A program made the position numbers and the translations under genes. From positions 62,001 to 126,000 of the forward strand of contig NZ_APHJ01000018.1 in assembly GCF_000403785.1 (NCBI RefSeq): 64,000 bases of DNA, in the 5' to 3' direction. Shown here piece by piece: positions 234 to 19,254 of the stretch. The stretch is from Gillisia sp. CAL575. GTDB lineage: Bacteria > Bacteroidota > Bacteroidia > Flavobacteriales > Flavobacteriaceae. How positions within the stretch are numbered: the first letter of the stretch is position 1; each line of letters starts with the position of its first letter. The notes beneath the pieces were generated by a model. It saw only the letters and a program-made list of their open reading frames with translations, ran no database searches and was not told where the DNA came from.

Positions 234-251
234 ACCGTCATTTATAAATGG
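234..251 (+). promoter_or_regulatory. 18-bp operator-like near-palindrome upstream of the exporter operon
   Basis: The sequence ACCGTCATTTATAAATGG contains the perfect 12-bp palindrome CATTTATAAATG (239-250). The same 18 bp occurs in inverted orientation at 5513-5530, upstream of the peptide gene. Each copy lies about 70-76 bp from the next start codon. Two related half sites precede rteC. The likeliest binder is the AraC-type regulator encoded at 3804-5522; this is inference from position and from the exact repetition. Confidence 0.6.
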
Positions 252-319
252 ATAGTTTGTTCGTCTACAGTTATCATTTTTCAAAATTAATTTAGTGTTC
301 TGACTTTCAATTATATAAT

Positions 320-2494
320 ATGTTTGGAGCTAAGAATTTTCCGGTTTATCGCCAGCTCGATCAGATGGACTGTGGTCCCACCTGCCTAAAAATAATTACA
401 GATTTTTATGGAGGAAATTATAATCTGAATTATCTAAGAGAAATATCTTGTCTTCAAAAAGGAGGTGTGTCTCTGGCAGGTCTTTCAAATGCCTTAAAAA
501 GAATAGGAATGGATTCTATAGGAATTAAGGCAACTGTTCAGGAGCTTCTTCATGAAGTGCCGCTCCCTGCAATCGCTCATTGGTCAAACAATCATTTTTT
601 GGTAGTTTACAGAACAGATAAAAGGAATGTTTTTGTATCTGATCCTGCTCTAGGATGTATGAAATACTCTCATGCTGAATTTCGGAATAGCTGGGTAGAA
701 GAAAATAATGAAGGCGTATTGCTCTTGGCTGAACCTAATCAAAATTTTTCTATACAAGATTTAGAAGATAACAAAGCACAGGGGTTAGGATTTCTAATTG
801 ATTATCTGAAACCATATAAAAAATATATCTACCAGATTTTTTTAGGATTGTTCATCGCTTCTGTTGTTCAGTTAATATTACCTTTTCTAACTCAAAGCAT
901 CGTCGATTACGGTATTAATTACGAGAATATTGATTTTATATCCCTCATCGTTATAGCACAGCTTTTTTTATTTCTTGTCAGATCTGCTTCAGGAATAATC
1001 AGGGATTGGATATTGTTACATATTGGAACTAAGGTTATAATCGCAATGATTTCCGATTACCTTGATAAAATTTTAAAACTTCCCATAGCGTTTTTCGATT
1101 CCAAAACTACTGGGGATTTTATGCAGCGCATTTATGATCATCAAAGAATAGAAGAATTTTTAAGTGGAGGATCACTGACGATTCTTTTTGATCTACTTAC
1201 AATTTTCATTTTTGCCATTATCCTGGGAATTTTTAATACTTCTATTTTTATGATTTTTATTACCGGAATCATTTTGTTTATGGGATGGTCATTGATATTT
1301 ATGAAGAAAAAGGAGGTGCTAGATCATCAGCTATTCGATTTAAACCGAAAAGACCAATCTTTATTCCTTCAAATAATATTAAGTGTGCTGGAAATCAAAC
1401 TAAATAATTCTGAGGAAAGAAGAAAATCTGAATGGAGAATCAACCAAGCCCAGCTTTTTGGGCTGCAATCAAGTATTTTGATAGTAGATCAGGCACAAAT
1501 TAATGGAGGTAAATTTATAAATGAATTTACGAGTATCCTTATAATATTCTGGTCAGCAAAGGCTGTAATAGCTGGAGAAATTAGCTTAGGAACTATGCTG
1601 GCGATTCAATTTATCGTGGGAAGTTTATATGTTCCAATTTCAAACAGCATGGATTTCCTTGTCGGGTACCAAAGAGCTAGACTTTCTTTAGATAGGTTAT
1701 CCGAAATTCATAATCAAGAACCTGAAGTTAAAAATGCTTATAGCGGATTTTATATGGATCCTGGTGACATAGTGTTTAAAAATGTAAGTTTTAAATTCAA
1801 TCCCATCAATTCAAGATCTATACTTCATAATATTTCTATAACTATAGCTCAAGGTAAAGTTACTGCCATTGTCGGTGCCAGTGGTTCGGGTAAAACAACA
1901 CTTCTGAAATTATTACTAAAACTTTATAACCCCATTGAAGGAAAAATTAGCATTGGCGATCAAAATCTTGAGAATATTAAAGCAGATAAATGGAGACAGG
2001 TTTGTGGCGCGGTATTACAAGATGGAATACTTTTCAATGATACCATAGAAAGAAACATTACGGAATCTAAATCCCAAGAGCCTGTCAACCAACACGAAAT
2101 TGATAAAGCAGTGAAACTGGCGAATTTGTCGGATTTCATTGATGAACTGCCTTTTAAATATCAGACTAAAATTGGGGAGCAAGGCCAGCTATTAAGCGGA
2201 GGAGAAAAGCAAAGATTACTTATTGCAAGAGCAATTTATAAGAATCCTGATTATCTGTTCTTCGATGAAGCAACGAGCTCCCTAGATGCGGAAAATGAAA
2301 AAGTAATTACTGAAAATTTAAATCAGTTTTATAAAAACAAAACTGTAGTCATAATAGCTCATCGATTGTCCACGGTAAAAAATGCGGATCAAATTCTAGT
2401 AATGCATAAAGGTAATGTAGTCGAAGAAGGTAATCATCAGGAACTGCTATCACGACAAGGTTTTTATTTCCAATTAATACAGAATCAACTTTAA
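320..2494 (+). CDS. Peptidase-containing ABC transporter (C39 bacteriocin-type exporter)
   Basis: A 724-residue inner-membrane exporter that trims and secretes double-glycine-leader peptides. The N-terminal C39 peptidase domain (about 1-150) has the catalytic Cys18 in DCGPTCL, with a later NHF histidine and VSDP aspartate. A six-helix permease follows (about 165-460), then the ATPase with Walker A GASGSGKTT near 520, signature LSGGEKQR near 625 and Walker B YLFFDEATSSLD near 645. All catalytic parts look intact. HlyD follows after 15 bp, then the AraC regulator. The matching substrate is the small peptide at 5606-5728. A toxin exporter and a signal-peptide exporter look alike at this level. 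Confidence 0.93.
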   Translation: MFGAKNFPVYRQLDQMDCGPTCLKIITDFYGGNYNLNYLREISCLQKGGVSLAGLSNALKRIGMDSIGIKATVQELLHEVPLPAIAHWSNNHFLVVYRTDKRNVFVSDPALGCMKYSHAEFRNSWVEENNEGVLLLAEPNQNFSIQDLEDNKAQGLGFLIDYLKPYKKYIYQIFLGLFIASVVQLILPFLTQSIVDYGINYENIDFISLIVIAQLFLFLVRSASGIIRDWILLHIGTKVIIAMISDYLDKILKLPIAFFDSKTTGDFMQRIYDHQRIEEFLSGGSLTILFDLLTIFIFAIILGIFNTSIFMIFITGIILFMGWSLIFMKKKEVLDHQLFDLNRKDQSLFLQIILSVLEIKLNNSEERRKSEWRINQAQLFGLQSSILIVDQAQINGGKFINEFTSILIIFWSAKAVIAGEISLGTMLAIQFIVGSLYVPISNSMDFLVGYQRARLSLDRLSEIHNQEPEVKNAYSGFYMDPGDIVFKNVSFKFNPINSRSILHNISITIAQGKVTAIVGASGSGKTTLLKLLLKLYNPIEGKISIGDQNLENIKADKWRQVCGAVLQDGILFNDTIERNITESKSQEPVNQHEIDKAVKLANLSDFIDELPFKYQTKIGEQGQLLSGGEKQRLLIARAIYKNPDYLFFDEATSSLDAENEKVITENLNQFYKNKTVVIIAHRLSTVKNADQILVMHKGNVVEEGNHQELLSRQGFYFQLIQNQL

Positions 2495-2509: not shown

Positions 2510-3793
2510 ATGTTTAATTCTAATAAAGTTAGAGAGCTTGATAAGGAGCCTGGATGGGTATTACGTAACGGAACTATCTTTATTTTTGTAATGTTAATTC
2601 TTGTACTCCTACTTGCTTCCTTCTTCCCGTTTAATGAAGTGGTTGAAGGAAATGTCATGATTACTTCAGATAACCCACCAGCACATATTAAAGCCAAAAA
2701 TGCCGGAAAGATTTTGGCAATTAATTATAAAGCTGGAGATACGGTTATAAAAGGAGCTATTTTAGGTGAACTAGAAAATAACGGAAAGAGAGAGGATATT
2801 CTTTATCTTAAAAATCAACTAAAGAGTTCCTTAGATGAAATTTACTCTCTTGAAGATTTATCAAAAACTTTTTCACCACAACTGCATTTAGGAAGCGATA
2901 TCCAATTGTATTATAATACTTTTTGGAATAATTATCAGCAATTGATATTAGATGAGTCTCTTCAGGATTTTAATATTTATGATGAACAAATCAAAGCAGA
3001 ATTAATCAATCAGAAAAATTCAATTCAGAACAAAAAAGAGGAATTAATTACTATGGAAAGAAATCTGGAGGTTTCTCAAAATAATTTTAGTAGATATAAG
3101 CAGTTGTTTCAAAAGGGTGTGATATCTCAACTGGATCTGGAAACAACAGAAAAAGAACTTTTAAGTGTACAACGGCAATTTCATTTATTAAAACAAGAAA
3201 TTAACCAGTTGAAGTTAGAAAATAGCGGATTTCAAAACAAACAAAAACTTACCACTCACAGTTCTATTAGGAATAAAAATAATTTAGAGATGGATTTAGA
3301 GCTATCCAGACAAAATTTACTTAATTCCATTACAGAATGGGAAGATAAATATCTTCTAAAAAGCCCTATTGAGGGACGAATTTCATTTTTCGAAGTTTGG
3401 GGAGAGTATCAGAATATTACCGAAGGGGAAAACATTTTCACGGTGGTTCCTTTAATTCAGCAAAACTTAATCGGGAAATGTGAAGTTCCATTACGAAATT
3501 CTGGTAAACTTAAAGCAGGCCAAAAGGTAAATTTGAAACTTGAAAATTATCCATATCGGGAATGGGGAATGGTAAGAGCGAAGGTGGGATCGATTTCTGA
3601 AGTACCTAAAACAGGTAAGAACCCTACATATATTGTTTATCTAGATATTGATCACCTTAAGACATCGTATGGTAAAAATTTGCAATTTCATCAAGAGTTG
3701 AAAGGTACTGCTGAAATCTTGCTTAATGAAGTAACAGTTATGGACCGAGTTTTTTTTCAATTTAGGCATTTATGGTCAAATCAGAAATTTTAA
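2510..3793 (+). CDS. HlyD-family membrane fusion protein
   Basis: A 427-residue periplasmic adaptor that links the upstream ABC exporter to an outer-membrane channel. It has a short cytosolic N-terminus, one membrane helix (about 20-40), a lipoyl/barrel-sandwich half motif (AKNAGKILAINYKAGDTV), a long coiled coil (about 90-270) rich in Gln, Leu and Glu, the second half motif (KSPIEGRISF) and a C-terminal beta barrel. The length is normal for the family. It starts 15 bp after the exporter and ends 10 bp before the regulator, so the three genes form one operon. No TolC-like gene is in the window, so a housekeeping one is presumably used. Confidence 0.92.
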   Translation: MFNSNKVRELDKEPGWVLRNGTIFIFVMLILVLLLASFFPFNEVVEGNVMITSDNPPAHIKAKNAGKILAINYKAGDTVIKGAILGELENNGKREDILYLKNQLKSSLDEIYSLEDLSKTFSPQLHLGSDIQLYYNTFWNNYQQLILDESLQDFNIYDEQIKAELINQKNSIQNKKEELITMERNLEVSQNNFSRYKQLFQKGVISQLDLETTEKELLSVQRQFHLLKQEINQLKLENSGFQNKQKLTTHSSIRNKNNLEMDLELSRQNLLNSITEWEDKYLLKSPIEGRISFFEVWGEYQNITEGENIFTVVPLIQQNLIGKCEVPLRNSGKLKAGQKVNLKLENYPYREWGMVRAKVGSISEVPKTGKNPTYIVYLDIDHLKTSYGKNLQFHQELKGTAEILLNEVTVMDRVFFQFRHLWSNQKF

Positions 3794-3803
3794 ATGATAA
3801 AGA

Positions 3804-5522
3804 ATGATCTTCTCTTCTCTAATACAATATTTTCGATTCCAGGTCTTGATCGGCCTAGCACTCGTATTTTGTGTAACTCAGATGGGATTTTCACAAACTA
3901 TAAATACTAAGTCACCTTCTGACTATTCGATTGCTACCTCTTATGAGCTACTACATATAATGGAAGAAGAGGCCACGGAAGCATCAAAATTTGACGAACT
4001 TCGAAATATAATCAGAATTCATGTAAACAAGTCAAAGAAAGAAAATAATCCTATAGAACTAGCAAGGGCATTCTATTATTTATTTTTTATTGAAAAGCCG
4101 CAGCTCGCATTAGCTTATGCAGATTCTATTATTTTAATTACAGAAAATAGTGATCATAAAAGTTATCCTACGCTAGGATACACCCTTAAAGCAAATTTGT
4201 TTTATGATCAGGGAAAATTCCAACCGGCACTTGATAATTTTTTAAAAGCCTATAATCTGGCATTAGAAAAAGAAAACAAAGAAGACCAAGGGGAAATATC
4301 ACTGGCAATCGCAGCAATTCGAAATATTAATGGTCAGCATTATGCCGCCGCCGATCTTTATAAACGGTCCCTAAGCTTACTAAAGCAGAATGATAATTTT
4401 CCTGATGCATATTATGAAGATTACTCTACCTTGTTATATAATCTTTCCCTTACTTATTTAAGATTATCACAAATAGACACTGCAAAATTTTATGTGCGAA
4501 AAGGTTTAAAACTGTCGCAATCTTTAAAAAAAACTGATGATTTCAGGGATTTCGTGCTTGTTGATGCCCAAATAAATTACTATCAGAAAGATTACCAAAA
4601 ATCAAAAGATAGCTTGTTGAAATATATTAATAAATTAGAGGGTACCGAGAGAGCAATTAAACTTTATTACCTAGGAAAAATTGAAAAATATTTAAAAAAT
4701 GATAAGCTTGCAATGGCTTATTTTAAAGAAATAGATTCTATCGTTTCACTAACTGGGGATCCTTTTGGAGAAGTTAAGGATGTTTATCAGCAGCTTATTA
4801 TCTATTCTGTTCTTGAGGATAACGAAAAAGAGCAAATTAAATATATAGAAAAATTGATTCATAATGATAGCATATTATCATCGGCTCAGGAAAATGTTAA
4901 TAATCAGGTCGTAATAGCATATGATATACCCGATCTTAAACGGCAAAAACTGAAAGCTGAAAAACAACTAGAAGCAAAAACTTTTTATATAATTGGATTC
5001 GCTGTTTTTGCAGGGATTGCTATTTTAATCGGTATTTACTTTTTCTTCCGTTCAAGAAACATAAGAAAAAGATTAAATATTTTAATGGAAGGTGTTGAAG
5101 TTCAGATATATGAACCGAAGCAAGTTACTGAACACCCATCTTCGGTACCGATAGAAATTAGAAAAGAGATCTTATCAAGACTTAATACCTTTGAAAATTC
5201 AGATCGATTTTTAAATAAAGATCTTGATTTGTCTATTCTATCCAATGATTTAGGCACTAACACAACATACCTTTCAACCATTATTAACCATTATAAAAAG
5301 GTGAATTTCCCCAATTACCTTAAGGATCTGAGAATAAGAGCAGCCATCACTCGTCTTAGTAACGATCCAGATTTACTAAAATACAACTATCAGGGATTGG
5401 CAGAAATTTTCGGATTTAAGACAGGAGAATCTTTTTCCAAAGCTTTTTATAAGAAAACCGGAGTTTCTCCTTCAATGTTTTTAAATGAACTAAAATCAAG
5501 GGAAACTAGTCGCCATTTATAA
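3804..5522 (+). CDS. Transmembrane TPR/AraC-type regulator, candidate peptide sensor
   Basis: A 572-residue one-component regulator. A signal sequence (about 1-30, ending GFSQ) is followed by a helical TPR-like region (about 60-380), one membrane helix (about 393-415, FYIIGFAVFAGIAILIGIYF) and a C-terminal AraC-type double helix-turn-helix (about 450-565, including YLSTIINHYKKVNFPNYLKDLR and FGFKTGESFSKAFYKKTG). This arrangement puts the TPR part in the periplasm and the DNA-binding part in the cytosol. It is the third gene of the exporter operon. Its stop codon lies inside the operator-like site 5513-5530. I infer that it senses the exported peptide, or a product of it, and binds the repeated palindrome. 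Confidence 0.85.
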   Translation: MIFSSLIQYFRFQVLIGLALVFCVTQMGFSQTINTKSPSDYSIATSYELLHIMEEEATEASKFDELRNIIRIHVNKSKKENNPIELARAFYYLFFIEKPQLALAYADSIILITENSDHKSYPTLGYTLKANLFYDQGKFQPALDNFLKAYNLALEKENKEDQGEISLAIAAIRNINGQHYAAADLYKRSLSLLKQNDNFPDAYYEDYSTLLYNLSLTYLRLSQIDTAKFYVRKGLKLSQSLKKTDDFRDFVLVDAQINYYQKDYQKSKDSLLKYINKLEGTERAIKLYYLGKIEKYLKNDKLAMAYFKEIDSIVSLTGDPFGEVKDVYQQLIIYSVLEDNEKEQIKYIEKLIHNDSILSSAQENVNNQVVIAYDIPDLKRQKLKAEKQLEAKTFYIIGFAVFAGIAILIGIYFFFRSRNIRKRLNILMEGVEVQIYEPKQVTEHPSSVPIEIRKEILSRLNTFENSDRFLNKDLDLSILSNDLGTNTTYLSTIINHYKKVNFPNYLKDLRIRAAITRLSNDPDLLKYNYQGLAEIFGFKTGESFSKAFYKKTGVSPSMFLNELKSRETSRHL

Positions 5523-5530
5523 ATGACGGT
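5513..5530 (-). promoter_or_regulatory. Second, inverted copy of the 18-bp operator-like site
   Basis: This is the exact reverse complement of the 18 bp at 234-251, read here as CCATTTATAAATGACGGT. It overlaps the stop codon of the AraC-type gene and lies 75 bp upstream of the peptide start. A weak promoter-like TTCATTTG (7 of 8 to TAnnTTTG) lies between site and gene. An exact 18-bp repeat at two promoters of one locus is unlikely by chance even in A/T-rich DNA. Confidence 0.6.
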
Positions 5531-5605
5531 TTAAATTTTTTGCTGAATGTGTTCATTTGTGATTACTTAGTGTATGTAAATTTTTATTAATCAAATACTT
5601 AAATC

Positions 5606-5728
5606 ATGAAAAAAGTACTAAAAGATTTCAAAGGAAGAGAACTGAAGAATTTGGATAAAATTCGAGGTGGGGGAGAGGATGGACCTATAGATAGGGACAA
5701 AATTAAAAGACCAAAGGCAGGAAGATAA
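5606..5728 (+). CDS. Small double-glycine leader peptide, likely exporter substrate
   Basis: A 40-residue gene too short for routine calling. The N-terminus is a typical C39 leader: MKK start, a basic/amphipathic stretch, then LKNLDKIRGG with conserved leader leucines and a Gly-Gly cleavage site. Cleavage after that GG would release an 18-residue peptide GEDGPIDRDKIKRPKAGR, hydrophilic with several charges, two prolines and no Cys. It has no Ser, Thr or Cys, so lanthionine rings are excluded. It sits alone behind an operator-like site and ahead of a strong terminator, as expected for a highly expressed short mRNA. It looks more like a pheromone or linear microcin than a membrane-active bacteriocin; the function is inferred. 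Confidence 0.75.
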   Translation: MKKVLKDFKGRELKNLDKIRGGGEDGPIDRDKIKRPKAGR

Positions 5729-5750: not shown

Positions 5751-5787
5751 AAATTCCCGAGTCAAATTTAAGGTCTCGGGAATTTTT
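5751..5787 (+). terminator. Intrinsic terminator after the peptide gene
   Basis: A perfect 11-bp stem, AAATTCCCGAG (5751-5761) with CTCGGGAATTT (5775-5785), a 13-nt loop and a T-tract. It separates the peptide gene from the S9 peptidase 12 bp further on, so the peptidase is probably made by read-through at a lower level. Confidence 0.8.
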
Positions 5788-5798
5788 AAATTCTAATT

Positions 5799-7967
5799 AT
5801 GAAAAAATTCATTAAACTTTTTCTGACCAATTACCTGATTTTATTTCCAATAATTTGTTATTCTCAGGAAAAACAAATTAACCATTTTAAATATCCCAAT
5901 ATTAATGGGGAAATTAAACATGAGCTAAAATTTGGCGTAAAAGTTACAGATGATTTTTATAATCTAAACCATATTGAAAATGAGAAAGTAAAAGAGTGGT
6001 TTAAATTACAGGATTCTTTGGCAGAAGTATATTTTGATACCATTAAATCAATGCAGAAATACCTGAAAAGATTTAAACAACTTCAAAATTCTACTCAATC
6101 TAAAGTGAGTATGATTAGTGTAAATGAGGCTGGAAATTATTTCTACTTGAAAAAAGATGACAGTCTAGGAATGGAAAAATTGTTTTATAAAAAGAATCTA
6201 GATGCTGAGGAAATAGAATTATTCGATGCTAAACATTATGCTAATGGGGATAAAGAAATCAGTTACCTAAAACCTTCTTTCGACGGAAAAAAAATCGCCA
6301 TTGGATTTATTGAAAACAATGATTTTTCCAGTAAGATTAAAATATACGATTTGGAAGCAGGCAAATTCCTAAATGATGAAATAACAAATATAAATCCTGA
6401 TTTTGGCGGAATAGAATGGCTATCTGATAACTCTGGTTTTATCTATTTATATTTTCCTGAGGTTGACGCATCTAAGCCAGATTTTAAAAAAAAATCATTT
6501 TCTGTGCTACACAAACTAGGGGAGGACAATATAAATGCTAGTCCAATTTTTGGAGCTGATACAAATTTAGAAATTTCAGCAGATTTTTATCCTAAAGTAA
6601 AGATTGGCTCGAGCAAGGATAAGTATATTATTGGTTATGTAGCCAGTTCAGATGATTATTATGACAGTTTTATCGCTGAAATGAGTGATGTTATTAATGG
6701 AAAACCAGATTGGAAACCTTTTTTTAAAAAAGAGGATAAAATATACTACGATCAAGGCGAACTGCGTGGAGAAGAGTTTATTTTCCGCCAAGGAAAATTG
6801 AAGGGAAATAGCTTAGCAAAGATAAATATTTCAAATCCAGATTTTAATAATCCCAAAATTTTAGCAGAAGGAACCAAAGACGATCCAATTACGAATTTTG
6901 TATTAAATAGGGATCATATATTTTTCACAAGATCCTTGTACGGTGCAAATGTTTCCTTGTTTAAAATAAGTTCTGGGAATCAGCTTACCCAACTCGACCT
7001 TCCTTTTACGCCCGGCTATATTTCTTTTTTTGGAGAATCTCTTTCTCATAATACCGTGGGAGTAGGATTGGATGGCTGGACTTCGGATTATACTCGATAT
7101 TTAATAGATGAAAAAGGTAATTTTCAAAAAGAGGCACTTTCAACTGAAAGTGAATACCAAGACTTTGCAGATATTATTTCAGAACAGGTAATGGTCAGCT
7201 CGCATGACGGAATAGAAGTTCCTATGTCATTGGTATATAAGAAGGGGATTAAGAAGAATTCAGAAAATGAAGTCTTCATTTTTGTTTATGGAGCCTATGG
7301 TGAAAGCCTGAGTCCATTTTTCTCTCCTATTTTCTTAGACTGGGCGGCACAGGGTGGAATTCTGGCATTTCCGCATGTCAGAGGTGGAGGGGAGAAAGGA
7401 AAGGAGTGGCATGAACAAGGCATGAAAAATCTTAAATATAACTCATGGAAAGACCTTATAGCCTGTACGGAAGCTTTAATAGACATGAATCTTACTAAAG
7501 AAGGTTTGATTTCATTATATACAAACAGTGCGGGAGGTGTTACCGCGGCAATGGCAGTTAATGAAAGACCTGATCTTTATTCATCTTTTATTGCTGAAGT
7601 ACCCCGATTAAACCCTTTTGGTCTAGAATCTGCCAGTACTGCAAGCAGCACAAGTTATCTGGAATATGGAACTGTAAGGGACAGTGCAGAATATGTAGGA
7701 CTAATAAAAATGGATCCCTATTTAAATATTAAACCTAACATCCACTATCCAGCTACGCTTATAATGCCAAGCTACAATGATGATCGCATTCCTCTATGGG
7801 ATAACGGTAAATATATCGCCAAGCTCCAGAAATACAATACTACAAATTCACCCATTTTAATGGATATAGATTTTGATTCTGGGCACGAAACGTATGGTGA
7901 TTTTAATGAAACAATAAGACTATATAGTAAGATTTTTAGTTTTGCGAAATCCAATATGAAGAATTGA
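5799..7967 (+). CDS. Secreted prolyl oligopeptidase-family (S9) serine peptidase
   Basis: A 722-residue enzyme with a signal peptide (about 1-23, ending CYSQ), so it acts in the periplasm or outside. The N-terminal part carries the prolyl-oligopeptidase beta-propeller (about 40-430) and the C-terminal part an alpha/beta hydrolase. The nucleophile is Ser577 in TNSAGG; the first Gly usual in GGSNGG is Thr here. The aspartate lies in NDDRIP (661/662) and the histidine is His696 in SGHETYG. The triad therefore seems complete. It lies directly after the peptide gene. Since the predicted mature peptide has Gly-Pro and Arg-Pro bonds, this enzyme may trim or degrade it; S9 enzymes also cyclise peptides in some RiPP pathways. 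The link is by position only. Confidence 0.88.
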   Translation: MKKFIKLFLTNYLILFPIICYSQEKQINHFKYPNINGEIKHELKFGVKVTDDFYNLNHIENEKVKEWFKLQDSLAEVYFDTIKSMQKYLKRFKQLQNSTQSKVSMISVNEAGNYFYLKKDDSLGMEKLFYKKNLDAEEIELFDAKHYANGDKEISYLKPSFDGKKIAIGFIENNDFSSKIKIYDLEAGKFLNDEITNINPDFGGIEWLSDNSGFIYLYFPEVDASKPDFKKKSFSVLHKLGEDNINASPIFGADTNLEISADFYPKVKIGSSKDKYIIGYVASSDDYYDSFIAEMSDVINGKPDWKPFFKKEDKIYYDQGELRGEEFIFRQGKLKGNSLAKINISNPDFNNPKILAEGTKDDPITNFVLNRDHIFFTRSLYGANVSLFKISSGNQLTQLDLPFTPGYISFFGESLSHNTVGVGLDGWTSDYTRYLIDEKGNFQKEALSTESEYQDFADIISEQVMVSSHDGIEVPMSLVYKKGIKKNSENEVFIFVYGAYGESLSPFFSPIFLDWAAQGGILAFPHVRGGGEKGKEWHEQGMKNLKYNSWKDLIACTEALIDMNLTKEGLISLYTNSAGGVTAAMAVNERPDLYSSFIAEVPRLNPFGLESASTASSTSYLEYGTVRDSAEYVGLIKMDPYLNIKPNIHYPATLIMPSYNDDRIPLWDNGKYIAKLQKYNTTNSPILMDIDFDSGHETYGDFNETIRLYSKIFSFAKSNMKN

Positions 7968-8018
7968 AATTATCCTTTCGCAGTTAAACTTTAAATTCCT
8001 TTAAATTATTTTCCTATT

Positions 8019-8050
8019 CTTTATAAATGACCCTGTTCCTTTATAAATGG
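8019..8050 (+). promoter_or_regulatory. Tandem operator half sites upstream of rteC
   Basis: Two direct copies of CTTTATAAATG, at 8019-8029 and 8039-8049, are exactly 20 bp apart (two helical turns). Each shares TTTATAAATG with the palindrome found upstream of the exporter and peptide genes. Direct repeats two turns apart suit an AraC-type dimer. They end about 47 bp before the rteC start. Confidence 0.5.
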
Positions 8051-8096
8051 AACGCTTCTCAGTTTTCAGAACATAAGAAATAGACGGATATTTAAG

Positions 8097-8945
8097 ATGA
8101 CACTTCTTAATATCAATAAAATGGACTTTCTGATTACAAAAGAAGAACTAGAGGCTGAAATCTTGCGAATTGAGCAGACTTTTCTTAATAAATTATCGGC
8201 ATATAACAAGATTATTTCTTACTGCCGAGAGATTCTTGAATCTTACCGAAAAGAAATTCGTTTGAATGATTTTCAAGATATTGCATCAGAAATACTCTTT
8301 TTTAAAGAACAAAAATCGCTCCCTCTAACATATTTAATTTATTACGAAAATCGATTATCCATCGAATTGGAAATCCCATCCACTGGAGAAGCCTTTCGAC
8401 AAAAGTTCATTTTTAAATTGATCGAACGAATCAACAGATTTTTCTCTGCTCATAAAAACTTTCTTCAATATATGTCATTAGACCAAGAATATTTGGATGA
8501 ATTCTATTTCACACGCAGATATTCCTCTAAAAATCACATGATCAATTATAAGAATTATGAAAGGGATCCTTTATTTAGTACTTCACATGATTTACTTCTA
8601 AGCGAATTAAATTCCCATAAGTTCCTACTTCAATATTTGAATAAATTATCTATTCAAGTAAAGCAATCTTCTTCCCTAGTTTTAGAAGAACCTGTAAAAA
8701 TCAACTGGACAACATCTAAAGTGGCACTAACCGAACTAGTTTATGCTTTGCAACTTAGCGGCGCCATAAATAACGGAAACACAACTCTCAAAGAACTTTT
8801 TTTAATATTTGAGATACTGACCGGTTTAGATATGGGGGATTATCATCATACTTTTTTAAAATTAAGGGGACGTTCAGAACCTTTAAAATTCATCGAGAAA
8901 ATGAAAAATTCCATGTTGGAACATATGGCAGGACTCGATGCATAA
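8097..8945 (+). CDS. rteC: RteC-family regulator of conjugative transposon excision
   Basis: 282 residues. The C-terminal third carries the RteC signature: INWTTSKVALTELVYALQ, GAINNGNTTLKEL, LDMGDYHHTFLKLRGR and a final KFIEKMKN helix, a winged-helix DNA-binding region. In CTnDOT, RteC activates the excision operon by binding half sites upstream of xis2c. An internal Met at 8121 is an alternative start. Here it precedes an excisionase-like HTH gene by about 260 bp, and the gap holds two identical 16-bp repeats that may be its targets. There is no RteA/RteB pair nearby. Instead the gene follows the peptide module and shares its operator motif. Confidence 0.88.
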   Translation: MTLLNINKMDFLITKEELEAEILRIEQTFLNKLSAYNKIISYCREILESYRKEIRLNDFQDIASEILFFKEQKSLPLTYLIYYENRLSIELEIPSTGEAFRQKFIFKLIERINRFFSAHKNFLQYMSLDQEYLDEFYFTRRYSSKNHMINYKNYERDPLFSTSHDLLLSELNSHKFLLQYLNKLSIQVKQSSSLVLEEPVKINWTTSKVALTELVYALQLSGAINNGNTTLKELFLIFEILTGLDMGDYHHTFLKLRGRSEPLKFIEKMKNSMLEHMAGLDA

Positions 8946-8958
8946 ACAACCAAGATAC

Positions 8959-8974
8959 CACCAAGTTGGTCATT
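8959..8974 (+). repeat. 16-bp direct repeat, copy 1 (candidate RteC site)
   Basis: CACCAAGTTGGTCATT, identical to 9075-9090. It contains the inverted repeat ACCAA-G-TTGGT. It lies just after the rteC stop and upstream of the HTH gene at 9208. Confidence 0.6.
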
Positions 8975-9074: not shown

Positions 9075-9090
9075 CACCAAGTTGGTCATT
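9075..9090 (+). repeat. 16-bp direct repeat, copy 2 (candidate RteC site)
   Basis: Identical to 8959-8974 and offset by 116 bp. This copy lies about 118 bp upstream of the HTH gene start. Binding by RteC is inferred from the CTnDOT precedent, not from matching that element's known site sequence. Confidence 0.6.
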
Positions 9091-9207: not shown

Positions 9208-9483
9208 ATGCCAACAACTATTATTACTACAGAAGATTTAATGGAGTTCAAAATGGAACTCCTTGAAGAAATCCAAAAACTACTCGAAAGGGAATCAGGA
9301 AATGTTTCTAAAAAATGGCTGAAATCTACAGAAGTCATGGAAATGTTGAAAATTAGTGCGGGAACACTTAATAATTTCCGGGCCAACGGTACACTGCCAT
9401 TTAGTAAGATAGGAGGGATCATTTATTACGATTCCGCTACTATTCAAAAAGTACTGGCAAATAATCTTGTGAAAAATAATTGA
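9208..9483 (+). CDS. Excisionase-like helix-turn-helix protein
   Basis: A 91-residue protein. A coiled-coil start (MEFKMELLEEIQKLLERE) leads into a MerR/excisionase-type helix-turn-helix: KWLKSTEVMEMLKISAGTLNNFRANGTLPFSKIGGIIYYD. This family (HTH_17-like) is very common beside rteC in Bacteroidetes ICEs and includes recombination directionality factors. I chose ATG 9208 over the upstream GTG at 9181, because the extra nine residues are not part of the usual family start. The next gene follows after 3 bp, so the two are cotranscribed. Confidence 0.8.
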   Translation: MPTTIITTEDLMEFKMELLEEIQKLLERESGNVSKKWLKSTEVMEMLKISAGTLNNFRANGTLPFSKIGGIIYYDSATIQKVLANNLVKNN

Positions 9484-13060: not shown

Positions 13061-14443
13061 ATGAAGATAGGACTTGTTTGGTTTAAAAATGATTTGAGGT
13101 TATTTGATAATGAAGCTTTGTGCAAAGCTATATCTAATTGTGATAAGCTAATTTTTTGCTATTGTGTTGAGGAATCTTTATTTCAAAAACTGGATTTAGG
13201 ATTTAGAAAAGCGGATATCAGTAGATTTAAATTTCTTGAAGATTCCGTACTTAATTTGCAATCGAATCTCGAGAAATTGTCTGGACATCTTTTAATAAGC
13301 ACAAAAAGTGCAAAAGAATTTATACCTCAAATAGTAAAGGAGCACAATATCACAGAAGTTTATGGAGAAATGGAATATGCTCCTGAAGAACTCATTCTTG
13401 TAGACAGTGTTCAAAAAAAGCTACCAAATGTTTCTTTCAATTTCTATTGGGGAAAAACCTTGTATCACATCGATGATATTCCTTTTACCATTTCAAATAT
13501 ACCTTTAACAAGCAAAGCATACAGGATTCCAACGTCAAACGAATCAGAGCCGAGAGTTCCATATTTAAGTCCTTCTTATTTAAACGCTGATACTAATATA
13601 ATGAGCACAGAATTTCCTTCTTATAGCTTGCTCGGATTTACGAAGGAAGAATATGAAATGGCTGAGACGTATGTTGAAGGTGGTGAAGATAATGGTCTAA
13701 AACGATTGTATCATTATACTTTTGAGACTGAATTACTAACGGGATATAGATGGACTAGAAATAGATCTTTAGGAATGGAATATAGTTCTAAATTTTCTCC
13801 GTATTTGGCACTTGGATGTATTTCTCCTAGGGAGATTTATCGAAATGTTCAGCACTATGAAACTGTAGTTAAAAAGAATCAAAGCACTTGGTGGATAATA
13901 TTTGAACTTGTATGGAGAGATTACTTCACATTTAAAGGAATGAAATTTGGAAATGAAATTTTTAAAACCAAAGGCTTTAAAAAGAAAGAACTTCTTTTCG
14001 AAAATAATATCAATTATTTCGAGAGGTGGTGTGAAGGAAATACTGGAATTCCATTTATAGATGCACATATGCGACAGCTAAATGAAACAGGATATATGAG
14101 TAATCGTGGTCGAGTTAATTGTTCTAGTTATCTTATACATGATTTAAAAATTGACTGGACTTGGGGCGCTGCATATTTTGAAAGCAAACTTATAGATTAT
14201 GACGTTAGTGCCAATTGGCTAAATTGGCACGTTCAAGCATATGAGATATATTATACAAATCCTGTAAATCAATCTAATAAATACAAATCACAAGAGTTTA
14301 TTAGGAAATGGATTCCAGAATTAAAGAATTATAACGATATGGAAATTTTAATACCTTGGGAATATGAGAATTCAGATTATCCTAAACCTATTGCGCTTTA
14401 CCAGAAATGGACAAGATCGATAAATCTGATTAAAAAGCTGTGA
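13061..14443 (+). CDS. DASH-type cryptochrome / deoxyribodipyrimidine photolyase
   Basis: 460 residues. The N-terminal Rossmann domain (MKIGLVWFKNDLRLFDNEAL) would bind an antenna cofactor and the C-terminal helical domain binds FAD (TGYRWTRNRSLGMEYSSKFSPYLALGCISPREIY, MSNRGRVNCSSYLIHDLKIDW, IDYDVSANWLNWH). The NRGRVNCSSYL region and the closing YKSQEFIRKWIPEL resemble the CRY-DASH group, which repairs cyclobutane dimers, mainly in single-stranded DNA. Length is normal. It is followed convergently by dnaE and forms part of a DNA-damage island with dinB, BLUF and SRAP genes. Confidence 0.9.
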   Translation: MKIGLVWFKNDLRLFDNEALCKAISNCDKLIFCYCVEESLFQKLDLGFRKADISRFKFLEDSVLNLQSNLEKLSGHLLISTKSAKEFIPQIVKEHNITEVYGEMEYAPEELILVDSVQKKLPNVSFNFYWGKTLYHIDDIPFTISNIPLTSKAYRIPTSNESEPRVPYLSPSYLNADTNIMSTEFPSYSLLGFTKEEYEMAETYVEGGEDNGLKRLYHYTFETELLTGYRWTRNRSLGMEYSSKFSPYLALGCISPREIYRNVQHYETVVKKNQSTWWIIFELVWRDYFTFKGMKFGNEIFKTKGFKKKELLFENNINYFERWCEGNTGIPFIDAHMRQLNETGYMSNRGRVNCSSYLIHDLKIDWTWGAAYFESKLIDYDVSANWLNWHVQAYEIYYTNPVNQSNKYKSQEFIRKWIPELKNYNDMEILIPWEYENSDYPKPIALYQKWTRSINLIKKL

Positions 14444-14479
14444 AAAGTATTTAAGATTTATTAATCTTAATAAGTATAT

Positions 14480-17467
14480 TTAAATAAGCTTTGCATTAGT
14501 ATCGGAATCTTTAAAACGTGGATCTTGAATCATTGGTAATCGCTCAATATAATCTACAATAATCGCCAAACATCCTAGATCATCTACTACTTTTCCTTTA
14601 ATAAAATAAACCCCGAGAGAACTGATATCATATTTCTCGGAGATTTGAGGAAAGTGAACCGTATCAAAAAATTCACCATCAATATCTAAGAAAGTTCCAA
14701 AGTGCATAAGACGTTTGTCTTTAGTTGGAGTGCCTTTAGCTGTAACCAAACTTCCACATATTGAAATCTGTCTATTTATATGAGATTTCAAATCTTTGGT
14801 TTGTAATGATTGGGGAAGATTGCAATCTATTAATTGAAATCTAGAATATAATGGAAATCCTATTAATTCTAGTTGATCATAAGCATCTATTGCCATTTCA
14901 GTAGAAATCCTTGGAATATCAAAGGTTACTTTATTTTGTTTGAACAATAATGGTTGTGGTGCTTTGGAAGCATTCTTTTCTAATTTTAAATGAGCTTCCC
15001 ACAGTAAATGATGTTTATCTAAACCTGTAAATCTAAAGGCATCTATCCTAATTAAAATGATTAATTGTTCGATTCCTAAATGTATTCTATTTACAAAATC
15101 ATCAAAATTCTCAAAATCACCATACATTCCCCTTTCATTTAAAATTTTTTCTGATGTTCTAAACTCAAGAGATTTTAGCATTCCTAATCCTAAATAAACG
15201 GTATCGCCCACAATCCAATTTCCGTGGTCACTTTTATTGATACACGGCGCTTCCACTTTCCCGCCTTGTAATCTAATTTCTTGAACATAAGTCTCCATAT
15301 TATAAAATCCACCGCCGTTATTTAAAACAGCGGTCATAAATTCTAATGGGAAGTATTTTTTGAGATAAAGAGATTGATAACTCTCTACAGCATAAGATGC
15401 AGAATGACCTTTGGCAAATGCATAACCTGCAAATGCTTTTATTTGATCCCATACTTCCATTGTTAGACTCTCACTATACCCCTTCTCTAGGCAATTACTT
15501 ATAAATTTCTTTTCAATTTGTTCAAATTGTCCTTTAGATTTTACTTTACCACGCATTCCTCTTCGAAGAATATCTGCTTCAGCTAATGAAAGCCCTGCAA
15601 ACTTGTGCGCTACTTTTAATACATCTTCTTGATACACCATTACTCCATAAGTATCATGAAGAACTTCTAACATCACTGGATGCGCTTCTTTTCTTTTTTC
15701 TGGTATTCTATGTCTAAGAATAAATTCATTTTTCATTCCACCGTTAGAAACTCCTGGTCTAATAATACTACTAGCCGCCACAAGATTTAGATAATCGTTG
15801 GTTTGAAGCTTCGTCATCAAAGTTCTCATGGCAGGTGACTCTACATAAAAAACTCCCATACAATCTCCTGTATTAAGTAATTTATTTATTTCTGAATCAT
15901 TTTTGAAAGCGTTTATATCTTCTATGTCTAAAACTTGTGCATCTGGTTGGTTGTAGCTAATAATTTCTAAGGTGTCCTTTATTTTTGAAAGACCTCGTTG
16001 TGCGAGAATATCAAATTTAAATATCCCTACCTCTTCAGCTATATTCATATCAAACTGAACCGTTTGAAAACCTTTAGGTGGCATAAAGGTACTGGTGTAA
16101 TAACTTATTGGCTTTTGCGTGATAATTATTCCACCAGAATGAACACTTAAGTAATTTGGAAAGCCATGGATATAATGTGCATATTTTTCAACTAATTTAA
16201 TGTAGTCGCTACTAGAGCTTTTATCTACTTTAAAACCTTTTAGATAGTTGTCGATCTCTAATTTTGGAACCCCAAATACTTTACTCAATTCCCGAATAAC
16301 GGCACGATATTGAAACGTTACATAGGTACCCATTAATGCGGTATTTTTGAATCGGGTAAAAATATAGTTTGTTATATCATCTCGATCCTTCCAGGAAAAG
16401 TCAATATCAAAGTCGGGAGGACTACTTCTATATACATTTATAAAACGTTCAAAATAAAGATCCAATTCTATAGGATCTACATTTGTAATCCCGATAATAT
16501 AGGCAACCACACTATTTGCACCACTACCCCGACCTATATAGGGATAATTTTTAGACCGTGCATATTCCAAAATATCATGATTGATTAAAAAATAGGACAC
16601 AAAATCCATGTCTTTAATCGCAGTAAGTTCTTTTTCTACTCGTTCATAGACTTCTAAACTAGGATTCTGGTAACGATCTTTAATTTTACTATAGCAGAGT
16701 TCTTCAAGAATTATATAATCTGAAGCTTTATCCTTTTCATAAATTATCTGATTTTGATTAACCCTGTGATCATTAAAGAAAAAATTGACTTTACAAGATT
16801 TCAATAACCTGTCTGTATTAAATAAAAGTTCCGGATATTCCTGATACTTAATCTTTAAAAGCTCTGGAGGTAAAATAACATCAAGCTTATTACCTTGTTC
16901 TGTCGTCGGGACTTTACTCAAAAGAGTGTTTAAATCTATTGCTCGCAGTAATCTATGAGCATTGAAATCTGATTGATTTCTAAAAGTTATAGTGTGTAGT
17001 ATCACTAATTTGTCTCTCATTTCGGCAAATGGAGAATAGGGTAGTTTATTTAATTCCCTAATTGAAATTCCAATATATTCATTTTCTCTGAATTGATAGG
17101 ACTTAAGCTCCATCGCCTTTTCGAAAGTATAAACACAGTAAACATTTTTAAGAGTTGGTGCTTCTGAAGGAAACAACAAGTTATTATGTAGATGATGCGA
17201 TATAAATTCATTTAATTCTTGGAACCCATCATTATTCTTTGCTAATAAAATATATAATTGATCTACTCCATTCCTAACATCCACTCCAATAACAGCATGA
17301 ATATTTTCTTCCTGAGCAATTTTAATGAAATTTAAGCATGCACTGGTACTATTTATATCAGTAAGAGCTAATTGCGTAACTCCATTTTCTTTAGCCAAAT
17401 TGAGAAGCTCACTATCAGAAAATGTTCCGTAGCGAAGAGAAAAATAAGAGTGACAATTTAAATACAT
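14480..17467 (-). CDS. Error-prone-type DNA polymerase III alpha subunit
   Basis: A 995-residue C-family polymerase. An N-terminal PHP domain (YLNCHSYFSLRYGTFSDSELLNLA) precedes the palm with the catalytic SSPPDFDIDFSW motif, the PYIGRGSGANSVVAYIIGITNVDP fingers motif, a helix-hairpin-helix region and a C-terminal OB fold (ISICGSLVTAKGTPT). It is shorter than a replicative DnaE (about 1150) and lies divergent from dinB, an arrangement known for damage-inducible mutagenic polymerases on Bacteroidetes elements. The role is probably translesion synthesis. The 71-bp divergent promoter contains two palindromes. DnaE2-like activity is inferred from size and partner. Confidence 0.85.
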   Translation of the reverse strand: MYLNCHSYFSLRYGTFSDSELLNLAKENGVTQLALTDINSTSACLNFIKIAQEENIHAVIGVDVRNGVDQLYILLAKNNDGFQELNEFISHHLHNNLLFPSEAPTLKNVYCVYTFEKAMELKSYQFRENEYIGISIRELNKLPYSPFAEMRDKLVILHTITFRNQSDFNAHRLLRAIDLNTLLSKVPTTEQGNKLDVILPPELLKIKYQEYPELLFNTDRLLKSCKVNFFFNDHRVNQNQIIYEKDKASDYIILEELCYSKIKDRYQNPSLEVYERVEKELTAIKDMDFVSYFLINHDILEYARSKNYPYIGRGSGANSVVAYIIGITNVDPIELDLYFERFINVYRSSPPDFDIDFSWKDRDDITNYIFTRFKNTALMGTYVTFQYRAVIRELSKVFGVPKLEIDNYLKGFKVDKSSSSDYIKLVEKYAHYIHGFPNYLSVHSGGIIITQKPISYYTSTFMPPKGFQTVQFDMNIAEEVGIFKFDILAQRGLSKIKDTLEIISYNQPDAQVLDIEDINAFKNDSEINKLLNTGDCMGVFYVESPAMRTLMTKLQTNDYLNLVAASSIIRPGVSNGGMKNEFILRHRIPEKRKEAHPVMLEVLHDTYGVMVYQEDVLKVAHKFAGLSLAEADILRRGMRGKVKSKGQFEQIEKKFISNCLEKGYSESLTMEVWDQIKAFAGYAFAKGHSASYAVESYQSLYLKKYFPLEFMTAVLNNGGGFYNMETYVQEIRLQGGKVEAPCINKSDHGNWIVGDTVYLGLGMLKSLEFRTSEKILNERGMYGDFENFDDFVNRIHLGIEQLIILIRIDAFRFTGLDKHHLLWEAHLKLEKNASKAPQPLLFKQNKVTFDIPRISTEMAIDAYDQLELIGFPLYSRFQLIDCNLPQSLQTKDLKSHINRQISICGSLVTAKGTPTKDKRLMHFGTFLDIDGEFFDTVHFPQISEKYDISSLGVYFIKGKVVDDLGCLAIIVDYIERLPMIQDPRFKDSDTNAKLI

Positions 17468-17485
17468 TGTTGATAATTAGAAATA

Positions 17486-17538
17486 CAAAACTAATTTAAA
17501 ATAAGGAATTATTCCATAAATTTGGATAAATTCCAAAT
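17486..17538. promoter_or_regulatory. Divergent dnaE/dinB promoter with two palindromes
   Basis: On the minus strand TAGTTTTG (17493-17486) and on the plus strand TAAATTTG (17517-17524) both fit the Bacteroidetes -7 element TAnnTTTG. Between and over them lie GGAATTATTCC (17505-17515) and ATTTGGA-N5-TCCAAAT (17520-17538, perfect 7-bp arms, abutting the dinB ATG). These are good candidates for damage-responsive repressor sites; the repressor is unknown. Confidence 0.55.
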
Positions 17539-18759
17539 ATGAATAAATCAATTATACATTTTGATCTTGATGCTTTTTTTGTTTCATGTGAAAGAAGAAT
17601 GGACAGCAGGCTTAACAATAGGCCAGTAATTATTGGAGGTACTGGAAACCGTGGAGTAGTAACTGCTGCTAGTTATGAAGCTAGAAAATTTGGTGTTCAC
17701 AGTGCAATGAATATGCGCATGGCTAAACAATTATGTCCAGAGGCTATTTATATAAGAGGTAATGGAAGTCTCTATGGTAAAATGTCGCAGGAGGTAACTA
17801 ATATCTTGATGCAAGAATTACCAATTGTAGAAAAATCTAGTGTCGATGAATTCTACGCAGATTTAACTGGAATGGATAAATTCTTTGGCTGTTATAAATT
17901 TGCTAAAGAATTGCGATCAAAAATTATTAGAGAAACTGGACTACCTATTTCATTTGGACTTTCCGTGAATAAAACCGTTTCAAAGGTTGCAACTGGGGAA
18001 GCAAAACCTAATAATCAAATAAATGTTGCTCATGGTTATGAGAAAACTTTTTTAGCTCCATTATCTATTAAGAAGATTCCAATGATTGGAGATAAGACAT
18101 ACAAGACATTCACTCTTCTTGGTATACAAGATGTAGGTTTAGTTCAAAAAATGCCAATTGAAAGATTGATTTCTGTATTTGGTAAAAATGGTAGAACTAT
18201 TTGGGAACGTTGCAATGGAATAGATGACAGCCCAATTAAACCCTTCCATGAAAGAAAATCTATTTCTAGCGAGCGTACTTATGGAATAGACACTTTTGAT
18301 CAGGTTATGATAAAAACGACAATTTTAGCCATGGCCGAGAATTTAGCATTTCAACTTAGACGAGGTAATAAATTAACCTCTACGATTATGGTTAAAGTTC
18401 GTTATTCGGATTTTCAAACTTATACAAAGCAAATTAGCATAAAACACACCTCTGCAGACCATATATTAATACCCGCCGTAACCGAATTGTTCGATAAATT
18501 ATATAATCGTAGAATTTTAATTAGGCTTGTAGGAGTGCGTTTTAGCGGTTTGGCTGATGGGCATTATCAAATTGATATGTTTGAAAACACAAAGAAAACC
18601 GTGAATTTATATACTGCCATGGATAACATCAGAAATAAATATGGTGATCATTTGGTTAGACGTGCAGCTACACTTGGAGAGGGATCTAAAACTATAGGGA
18701 ATCAAGGAAATCCTTTTGATGGTCGCCCACCAGTTTTATTAGCTCATAGGCACCGTTAA
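17539..18759 (+). CDS. dinB: Y-family DNA polymerase IV
   Basis: 406 residues. It has the palm motif IIHFDLDAFFVSCERR with catalytic Asp, the steric-gate region, RPVIIGGTGNRGVVTAASYEARKFGVHS, and the second catalytic motif SSVDEFYADLTG. Helix-hairpin-helix and little-finger domains follow (GIQDVGLVQKMPIERL, SSERTYGIDTFD). The length is ordinary for DinB. There is no clear C-terminal beta-clamp pentapeptide that I can assign. It is divergent from the error-prone dnaE and probably co-regulated with it for lesion bypass. It converges on the BLUF gene with an 8-bp gap. Confidence 0.93.
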   Translation: MNKSIIHFDLDAFFVSCERRMDSRLNNRPVIIGGTGNRGVVTAASYEARKFGVHSAMNMRMAKQLCPEAIYIRGNGSLYGKMSQEVTNILMQELPIVEKSSVDEFYADLTGMDKFFGCYKFAKELRSKIIRETGLPISFGLSVNKTVSKVATGEAKPNNQINVAHGYEKTFLAPLSIKKIPMIGDKTYKTFTLLGIQDVGLVQKMPIERLISVFGKNGRTIWERCNGIDDSPIKPFHERKSISSERTYGIDTFDQVMIKTTILAMAENLAFQLRRGNKLTSTIMVKVRYSDFQTYTKQISIKHTSADHILIPAVTELFDKLYNRRILIRLVGVRFSGLADGHYQIDMFENTKKTVNLYTAMDNIRNKYGDHLVRRAATLGEGSKTIGNQGNPFDGRPPVLLAHRHR

Positions 18760-18767
18760 TATTTTTA

Positions 18768-19178
18768 TTAATCCCAAATTATAAACGGATTTAATAATCG
18801 ACTTAATTTTTCAGATATTGAATCTCTTTTATTTAATTCAAGATACTTTCGGACCTTATCAAGCTGACTTGAAGTAGTTATAGCCTGAAATTGAGAAAAG
18901 TAATTTTGGAATACAGGTTTTGTTACGTTTCGTCTATAAACTTCGAAAACTTCAGAATGTCTCGAATCTATTAAAATTTTATTTTCATACAAATCCTCGA
19001 TATACTTTTCCTCGCCTTCTAATACCTGAAAGAAATTCCCTAGAGAGTGTAAAAGAATACCTCTAACATGATTTAATCTATTGTTTTCCTCAGTAAGTTT
19101 AAAAATCTCATTAATTTCCTCAATTGTCAAATTAGGATTTGCCTTACTTACATAACAAATAGTATGAGTTTGTTTCAA
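18768..19178 (-). CDS. BLUF-domain blue-light sensor
   Basis: 136 residues made almost entirely of one BLUF domain that binds FAD. The photocycle residues are present: Tyr9 in ICYVSK, Asn32/33 in ENNRLNHVRGILLH and Gln51 in GNFFQVLEG; IDSRHSEVFEVYRR completes the fold. A short helical tail (about 100-136) has no recognisable output domain, so it would signal through a partner protein. It lies 76 bp downstream of the SRAP gene on the same strand. Its place among photolyase and polymerase genes suggests light-dependent control of repair, which is inference. Confidence 0.9.
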   Translation of the reverse strand: MKQTHTICYVSKANPNLTIEEINEIFKLTEENNRLNHVRGILLHSLGNFFQVLEGEEKYIEDLYENKILIDSRHSEVFEVYRRNVTKPVFQNYFSQFQAITTSSQLDKVRKYLELNKRDSISEKLSRLLNPFIIWD

Positions 19179-19254
19179 AATTATATTAATTTAAATTAGT
19201 TGTTTGCATAATGAAATTATAAATAAATTAACTGGAACAAATTTAAAATTATTT

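Follow-up and report, generated by a model that had tools for sequence, protein, structure and literature searches.

The question raised by this locus is which protein acts at a DNA word that recurs upstream of three transcription units of Gillisia sp. CAL575, and what these units would do together. The window, by which we mean the whole stretch of 64,000 nucleotides that was analysed (contig NZ_APHJ01000018.1, positions 62,001 to 126,000), carries an exact 18-mer before the gene of a peptidase-containing ABC exporter and again before that of a small double-glycine (GG) leader peptide, and related boxes before rteC. Between the two 18-mers a regulator is encoded (3804–5522) that combines a tetratricopeptide-repeat (TPR)-like part, a transmembrane helix and an AraC-type DNA-binding domain. 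On the evidence of sequence comparison, an operator shared by three promoters, its association with the AraC protein rather than with RteC and a fixed promoter geometry can be taken as established, and we hold with good confidence that the exporter, peptide and rteC promoters form a single regulon activated by the AraC protein. The sites in the window are as follows.

234–251, plus strand: operator 1, the 18-mer with its palindromic core CATTTATAAATG at 239–250, in the promoter of the exporter operon
5513–5530, minus strand: operator 2, with its core at 5514–5525, overlapping the stop codon of the regulator, in the promoter of the peptide gene
8018–8029, plus strand: operator 3a, the distal box TCTTTATAAATG, upstream of rteC
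8038–8049, plus strand: operator 3b, the proximal box CCTTTATAAATG, 20 bp past operator 3a

A search of the window placed the two 18-mers at 234–251 (plus strand) and, in reverse complement, at 5513–5530, just where an earlier sequence-only reading of this DNA had seen them, and the similar distance to the next gene on which it had remarked is borne out at 68 and 75 nt to the ATG. Measured from the start of the core these distances are 81 and 92 nt, and the proximal rteC box lies 83 nt from an ATG at 8121. The half site TTTATAAATG is present at 8020–8029 and 8040–8049 (plus strand), so that the spacing of exactly 20 bp claimed for the two copies before rteC is also correct. With up to three mismatches allowed, the 18-mer has three matches in the window against 0.09 expected from shuffling; the third of these (43586–43603, two mismatches) falls inside a large frame and was set aside. 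TTTATAAATG is matched ten times in the window (1.29 expected); each of the two palindromic copies counts twice here, and other copies are found at 1514, 12279, 16435 and 60365.

In the whole genome (G000; 3,644,987 bases or 3.64 Mb in 53 contigs) the exact 18-mer occurs twice, both copies being those of the window. No site has one mismatch, two sites have two and six have three, while the reversed pattern used as a control gave seven. All eight inexact matches, about as many as the control gives, fall within reading frames of 171–788 amino acids, and the seven that remain beside the one in the window were set aside as well. A genome scan with mismatches had been proposed as a check, with many unrelated occurrences as the result that would speak against a regulon; such occurrences are not seen, what was found being a background of about the size of the control and confined to reading frames. 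The description of the site itself needs revision. Both 18-mers are present, but an inverted 18-mer is not the unit: the operator is, as we read it, a palindrome of about 22 bp, approximately GTCGYCATTTATAAATGRCGAC. Since the functional unit is palindromic, the 'inverted' orientation of the two 18-mers carries no special meaning.

Close relatives in which the AraC protein is 94–97% identical retain the exact 18-mer, with both copies in L012 and L013 and one in L011, where the contig starts 55 bases upstream of the exporter gene. The palindrome is likewise conserved in relatives whose AraC protein is 32–55% identical. Among ten diverged loci (AraC identity about 50% in L061–L064, L075 and L076, 36–38% in L065–L067 and 32% in L070), the palindrome or a variant differing in one or two letters lies upstream of the peptide gene in nine; the exception is L061, which has no peptide gene at that place. 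This operator mostly overlaps the stop codon of the regulator. In L065, L067 and L076 the stop codon lies elsewhere, yet the distance from operator to peptide gene is kept, and the core starts 88–99 nt before the peptide ATG in all 11 loci measured, the window and L156 included. In L070 both outer letters of the palindrome change together (AATTTATAAATT), and L155 (G080), with an AraC protein only 25% identical, has a perfect 20-bp palindrome, TGCCATTTTATAAAATGGCA, with its inner core 102 nt before the peptide ATG, a variant operator at almost the usual position.

At the exporter, a box is found in seven of the eight loci in which this gene heads the operon and its upstream sequence is covered. 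It is exact in the window, L012 and L013 and has one or two mismatches in L062, L064, L075 and L076; in L075 its position is −111, and in the other three of these it is about −80 to −82. An exporter gene placed within the peptide operon, behind the peptide gene (L065–L067), lacks a separate box. L061 carries a box upstream of the regulator gene itself.

The distribution of the operator follows that of the regulator in the genus. The AraC gene is present in seven of 16 Gillisia genomes (E 1e-60). The 18-mer is found unaltered in six of these seven, and in the other, G405, a form with two mismatches lies where the AraC gene ends; the exact 18-mer is found in none of the nine Gillisia genomes without the gene. 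Across the family, the extended palindrome with at most one mismatch is present in 18 of 397 Flavobacteriaceae genomes, compared with one for the reversed control. One 3-kb locus was inspected in each of the 18: six adjoin the regulator, eight lie in open frames and four in neither situation. Two of these last four are exact (L088 and L089), and by eye they look like GC-ended hairpins.

The rteC promoter bears on the choice between the candidate binders. Boxes were counted with at most two mismatches within 330 bp, and precede 14 of the 16 rteC genes that lie beside the regulator against 2 of the 51 without AraC (Fisher test 1.4e-10). Two or more boxes are present in 12 of 16 and 0 of 51, respectively (3e-10), and removal of the near-identical L011–L013 leaves 11 of 13 (7.6e-9). 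Duplicates were removed from these counts (L162, of L070, and L158, of L110), as were L156, L161 and L163, which have no rteC in reach. The AraC-less set combines 30 best-hit-per-genome loci with 21 more rteC loci that were selected from that list; the flanks reach at least 5.1 kb upstream in 29 of the 30 (492 bases in L189 from G084) and about 3 to 4 kb in the other 21, and within them there is no AraC match at E 1e-5. The count of 2 in 51 was unchanged after the flanks of the 30 loci were widened from about 1.5 kb on each side. Two genomes, G110 and G225, carry both kinds of rteC, with boxes only at the AraC-linked ones. Tandem boxes are spaced by 20 bp in the window, L011, L012, L013, L061 and L063 and by 21 bp in L062 and L067. 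Two boxes are 31 bp apart in L066, 65 bp in L070 and 96 bp in L064 and L076, and a single box is present in L065 and L157.

A natural exchange in Gillisia hiemivivida (L012) separates the boxes from RteC. This locus is 93% identical to the window in nucleotide sequence up to its position 10,539, has no match up to 11,365 and is 87% identical thereafter. The exchanged segment (L012:10540–11365) comprises rteC from about codon 75 onwards plus the region behind it; the resulting RteC protein is 44% identical overall to that of the window and the downstream sites differ, while the boxes before rteC and the AraC protein (94%) are kept. From this we conclude that the boxes are tied to AraC and the downstream sites to RteC. 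In the window the latter are the following.

8959–8974, plus strand: candidate RteC site 1, CACCAAGTTGGTCATT, between rteC and the HTH_17 gene
9075–9090, plus strand: candidate RteC site 2, the identical word CACCAAGTTGGTCATT, 116 bp past site 1

In most loci where such sites are found, a word is repeated, directly or inverted, at a distance of 115–126 bp. The word varies with the rteC clade and is therefore a candidate RteC operator: GCCCASTGGGC in L062, GCCARYTGGC in L061 and L063, CGTAACTMCGA in L075 and, with copies 137–138 bp apart, ACCTTATTAGG in L065 and L066. No such pair of words is seen behind rteC in L012, L064, L067, L076 and L157.

The three promoters of the window also share their geometry. 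The Bacteroidota −7 consensus is TAnnTTTG, and a similar element follows each operator.

288–295, plus strand: −7-like element TAATTTAG, 37 bp past the core of operator 1
5563–5570, plus strand: −7-like element TTACTTAG, 37 bp past the core of operator 2
8087–8094, plus strand: −7-like element GATATTTA, 37 bp past the proximal rteC box

The word GATATTTA recurs with its spacing in L061, L062, L063 and L067, and the box upstream of the L061 regulator gene also has a −7-like element 37 bp on. Promoters were anchored by hand on the operator core, or on the proximal box where there are two, and scored against TAnnTTT[GA]. Over 26 promoters, with seven near-identical copies left out, the mean score is 4.73 at offset 37 and 2.51 over all offsets (z 5.3), the equal spacing in the window having been spotted by eye before the test was designed. 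At this offset TAnnTT is present in 11 of the 26 promoters, the next best offset having four. When spacers at least 60% alike were removed, 21 promoters remained, the spacers of which average 32% identity among themselves; offset 37 is again the best (mean 4.57, second best 3.33), TAnnTT occurs there in eight of 21 (next best four), and none of 3000 shuffles of base pairs of neighbours reaches this score at any offset. The 37-bp geometry agrees with an activator that binds directly before the promoter, and less well with a repressor.

That three transcription units belong to one regulon, as the sequence-only reading held, is thus supported by sites kept at the same promoters across diverged loci with few exceptions, by boxes that track AraC at rteC and survive the exchange of rteC, and by the 37-bp spacing to the −7-like element. 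Its naming of the AraC protein as the natural binder came through the linkage and comparative tests well, and stands as a prediction from sequence. The genes on which the regulon would act, with the features between them, are listed here.

320–2494, plus strand: ABC exporter in which a C39 peptidase is fused to the membrane part and ATPase of the transporter (PF03412 1.5e-32, PF00664, PF00005)
2510–3793, plus strand: HlyD-type adaptor (PF13437 5.6e-11; TIGR01843 under its cut-off)
3804–5522, plus strand: the regulator, with a signal-peptide-like start, a helical TPR-like part, a hydrophobic helix at about 389–418 and an AraC helix–turn–helix (HTH) domain at 479–560
5606–5728, plus strand: 40-residue double-glycine leader peptide, with homologues at the same place in relatives
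5751–5785, plus strand: terminator-like hairpin between the peptide and S9 genes
5799–7967, plus strand: S9 prolyl-oligopeptidase (PF00326 1.9e-38, PF02897 6.4e-25) with, by eye, a signal-peptide-like start
8121–8945, plus strand: rteC (PF09357 1.9e-52), annotatable from 8097
9208–9483, plus strand: gene of a small HTH_17 protein (PF12728 1.7e-08), a candidate excisionase-like target of RteC

Gaps of 15 nt (exporter to adaptor) and 10 nt (adaptor to regulator) separate the first three genes, which probably form one operon. For rteC the start is probably 8121 and not 8097 because a 1-nt indel lies between the two ATGs in G. hiemivivida; the window and L011–L013 all have the ATG at 8121 in frame.

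In the regulator, PF12833 (AraC HTH) matches residues 479–560 with 36.7 bits (cut-off 33.6), and TPR_12 reaches 28.1 bits, under its cut-off of 30.1. Hydropathy gives an N-terminal hydrophobic segment and a second hydrophobic stretch at about 389–418, from which the repeats are predicted to be periplasmic and the DNA-binding part cytoplasmic. The predicted structure is all-helical at low confidence (mean predicted local distance difference test score 56.7, from only four near-identical input sequences). A fold search with it returned generic TPR proteins; RapF ranks 9 and 43 among the 50 listed, and no weight is placed on this. In a sequence search of the PDB one chain was matched, 6swi, which is named a response regulator, over residues 468–562, and a plasmid search gave three records in which the match is confined to the C-terminal part. 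At E 1e-75, an order-level sample of 395 genomes contained the regulator only in its own genome and in G257. At locus L068 (G077) seven consecutive matches to the TPR–AraC regulator are seen.

The predicted mature part of the window peptide, GEDGPIDRDKIKRPKAGR, has 18 residues and is hydrophilic and charged; no Pfam or NCBIfam model matches the peptide. Fourteen members of 37–50 residues, picked for carrying the core or a recognizable variant of it, were aligned. Their leaders end in GG, where cleavage is predicted, and in most of them the mature part has a core close to [PVA]-I-D-R-D-K-[IV]-[KR]. By eye, this IDRDK core is the most conserved stretch and the leaders diverge more between clades. 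Small frames in L033, L038 and L068 were left out of the alignment as not GG-leader-like. In the window peptide the nonapeptide IDRDKIKRP, which the S9 peptidase is predicted to release, is flanked by prolines, and an S9 gene accompanies the peptide in all 17 core-bearing loci (tblastn; window, L011–L013, L062–L067, L070, L073–L076, L155 and L156). The S9 protein of the window joins a beta-propeller to a catalytic domain, as its PF02897 and PF00326 matches show, and has the catalytic Ser-Asp-His motifs (Ser577 in YTNSAGGV, DDRIP and GHETYG). Folding of the 75 nt past the peptide stop codon gives −16.5 kcal/mol, against −9.2 (standard deviation 3.0) for shuffled sequence. A clear hairpin is present in eight of 12 other loci tested (L012, L064, L075, L076, L156, L065, L070 and L074), is weaker in L066 and is missing from L062, L063 and L067; in the relatives its sequence differs and its place is similar. 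It may be a read-through attenuator, which would yield more peptide than peptidase.

From these observations we infer direct binding by the AraC protein, activation, the peptide as its ligand and an effect on excision. In such a mechanism the palindrome CATTTATAAATG plus its flanks would be the operator of the regulator, which, bound just upstream of the promoter, would activate the exporter–adaptor–regulator operon, with positive feedback as the result, as well as the peptide gene with the S9 gene behind it, and rteC. RteC would then act at its separate sites behind rteC and turn the excision genes on. The peptide would be cut after GG, leave the cell through the C39 ABC transporter and the HlyD protein, and be trimmed or destroyed by the exported S9 peptidase. 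The TPR-like domain would sense the peptide in the periplasm, one membrane helix would relay its state to the cytoplasmic AraC domain, and excision would be tied to the density or state of peptide-making neighbours. We lean towards the exported peptide being the ligand of the AraC regulator. The full picture, a quorum-sensing system of Bacteroidota borne on an integrative and conjugative element (ICE), in which an S9-matured GG-leader pheromone with the IDRDK core is read by a periplasmic TPR-like/AraC factor that leads to rteC, excision and transfer, may equally turn out right or wrong.

Several observations weigh against this reading. L063 has no clear box upstream of the exporter, L073 and L074 combine AraC, peptide and S9 genes without this operator being found before the peptide gene, and no box precedes rteC in L075 and L155. 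The window rteC boxes are themselves imperfect (two mismatches and one), as is the single box of L157. Twelve of the 18 loci with the extended palindrome have no AraC gene alongside, and the extended pattern missed G212, G217 and G225, in which the AraC gene and a core form are present and the outer letters differ. GG-ended candidates behind more distant AraC genes in L035 and L036 lack the conserved core and were excluded from the peptide family. An 18-residue hydrophilic peptide would also need to enter the periplasm from outside. Finally, L061 and L157 have AraC and rteC with no peptide gene found behind AraC and no exporter or S9 gene in the 17 kb covered, so that their regulator may respond to a different input or to peptide made by others.

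These last two loci suit the alternative that the regulator responds to some other envelope or nutrient cue, with the peptide as an output or a brake rather than an inducer; Phr peptides act as a brake. Related proteins are moreover present at E 1e-20 in 110 of the 397 Flavobacteriaceae genomes, and at many of the loci that were looked at no peptide gene follows. In operator-bearing loci, however, the peptide gene is conserved directly behind the regulator and under its operator, and we consider another cue somewhat unlikely, if well worth bearing in mind. A C39 exporter plus a GG-leader peptide is a common anatomy of bacteriocin loci, and both are present here, so the operator could co-ordinate production of an antibacterial peptide by autoinduction, with rteC recruited for joint induction with transfer. 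Against this, Pfam matches no modification or immunity family in the window genes, an exported S9 peptidase is present in all 17 core-bearing peptide loci compared, and the short, hydrophilic, charged mature part with IDRDK as its most conserved stretch (by eye) suits a ligand; a bacteriocin seems to us an unlikely explanation.

As to what binds the boxes, some of them lie close to rteC, and a host factor or RteC itself might act there with AraC merely linked. The absence of boxes at 49 of the 51 AraC-less rteC genes, their survival when most of rteC is swapped and their presence at peptide and exporter promoters distant from rteC make this improbable, and RteC in particular is an unlikely binder given the G. 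hiemivivida exchange and the AraC-less loci. The exact inverted copies do bracket the exporter–adaptor–regulator operon, as would be expected if these 5.3 kb were a mobile or invertible segment. Such a unit was rejected as having hardly any probability left, as further boxes lie before rteC, the boxes track promoters and not unit ends where the gene order has changed (L065–L067), the 37-bp spacing is fixed and the homology to L012 extends beyond the first copy to about window position 107.

The regulon with AraC as its predicted activator can be compared with known systems. In CTnDOT, according to PMC1976400, the known trigger of rteC is the RteA/RteB response to tetracycline: RteB switches rteC on, and RteA/RteB act through rteC on the excision genes. 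The likeness lies in RteC, through which excision and transfer would be gated, and in the Bacteroidota tra genes (TraG, TraK, TraM and TraN); the difference is that rteC here has operators that track a TPR-like/AraC membrane regulator accompanied by a peptide, an exporter and a peptidase. A putative TPR-type sensor, a small peptide predicted to be secreted and the proposed control of a mobile element recall the RRNPP family. Its receptors, which include the Rap/Phr control of ICEBs1, act on re-imported peptides. Peptide pheromone receptors of this family are reviewed in PMC6540685 and PMC9765709, and are cytoplasmic according to the latter. The sensor described here differs in its signal-peptide-like start and membrane helix, on which its predicted location is based, and in its C-terminal AraC output, and on that prediction it is not a cytoplasmic receptor with an RRNPP-type output domain.

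C39/GG-leader systems and the Bacteroidales clusters for ribosomally synthesized and post-translationally modified peptides (RiPPs) have the C39 ABC exporter and a precursor peptide in common with this module. For these clusters PMC10352776 mentions TPR-like genes in two of them and possible pheromone roles. Here, in contrast, Pfam matches no modifying-enzyme family in the six genes, the peptide module has constant partners in the S9 peptidase, the AraC regulator and, in most cases, rteC, and there is a defined operator. With AraC/XylS proteins the regulator shares the HTH_18 domain and, in several loci, paired sites before the rteC promoter that are separated by about two turns of the helix; it differs in its palindromic operator of about 22 bp and its predicted periplasmic, TPR-like sensor part. 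We know of no peptide quorum-sensing system established in Bacteroidota, and a search of the open-licence literature found no description of a peptide/AraC system controlling rteC. The component families are known, while the combination and the operator look new. An operator joining a peptide export module to rteC offers a handle on whether elements move in response to neighbours, and, together with the 37-bp rule, would allow targets of the regulator to be predicted in other Flavobacteriaceae. If the reading is true, a one-component membrane sensor of TPR-like/AraC type would be a new peptide-sensing architecture.

To the right of the module TraG is matched above the cut-off and TraK, TraM and TraN under theirs. 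Because the homology to L012 starts near window position 107 and the sequence to the left looks chromosomal (gene names by eye), we place the module at the left end of the element. A tyrosine integrase lies directly upstream of the module in L012 and L013, and integrases also adjoin it in L061, L064, L076 and L066 (the last cut by the region end). None is seen adjoining the module in the window; two PF13102 matches are found elsewhere on the same contig (C17:168504 and 169921). In L076 (G406) the exporter frame is split into two open frames. Further along the window, at 13061–19980, genes for a DASH-type cryptochrome, a DnaE-like polymerase and DNA polymerase IV are present, followed by a short protein that resembles a BLUF sensor and by an SRAP-like protein.

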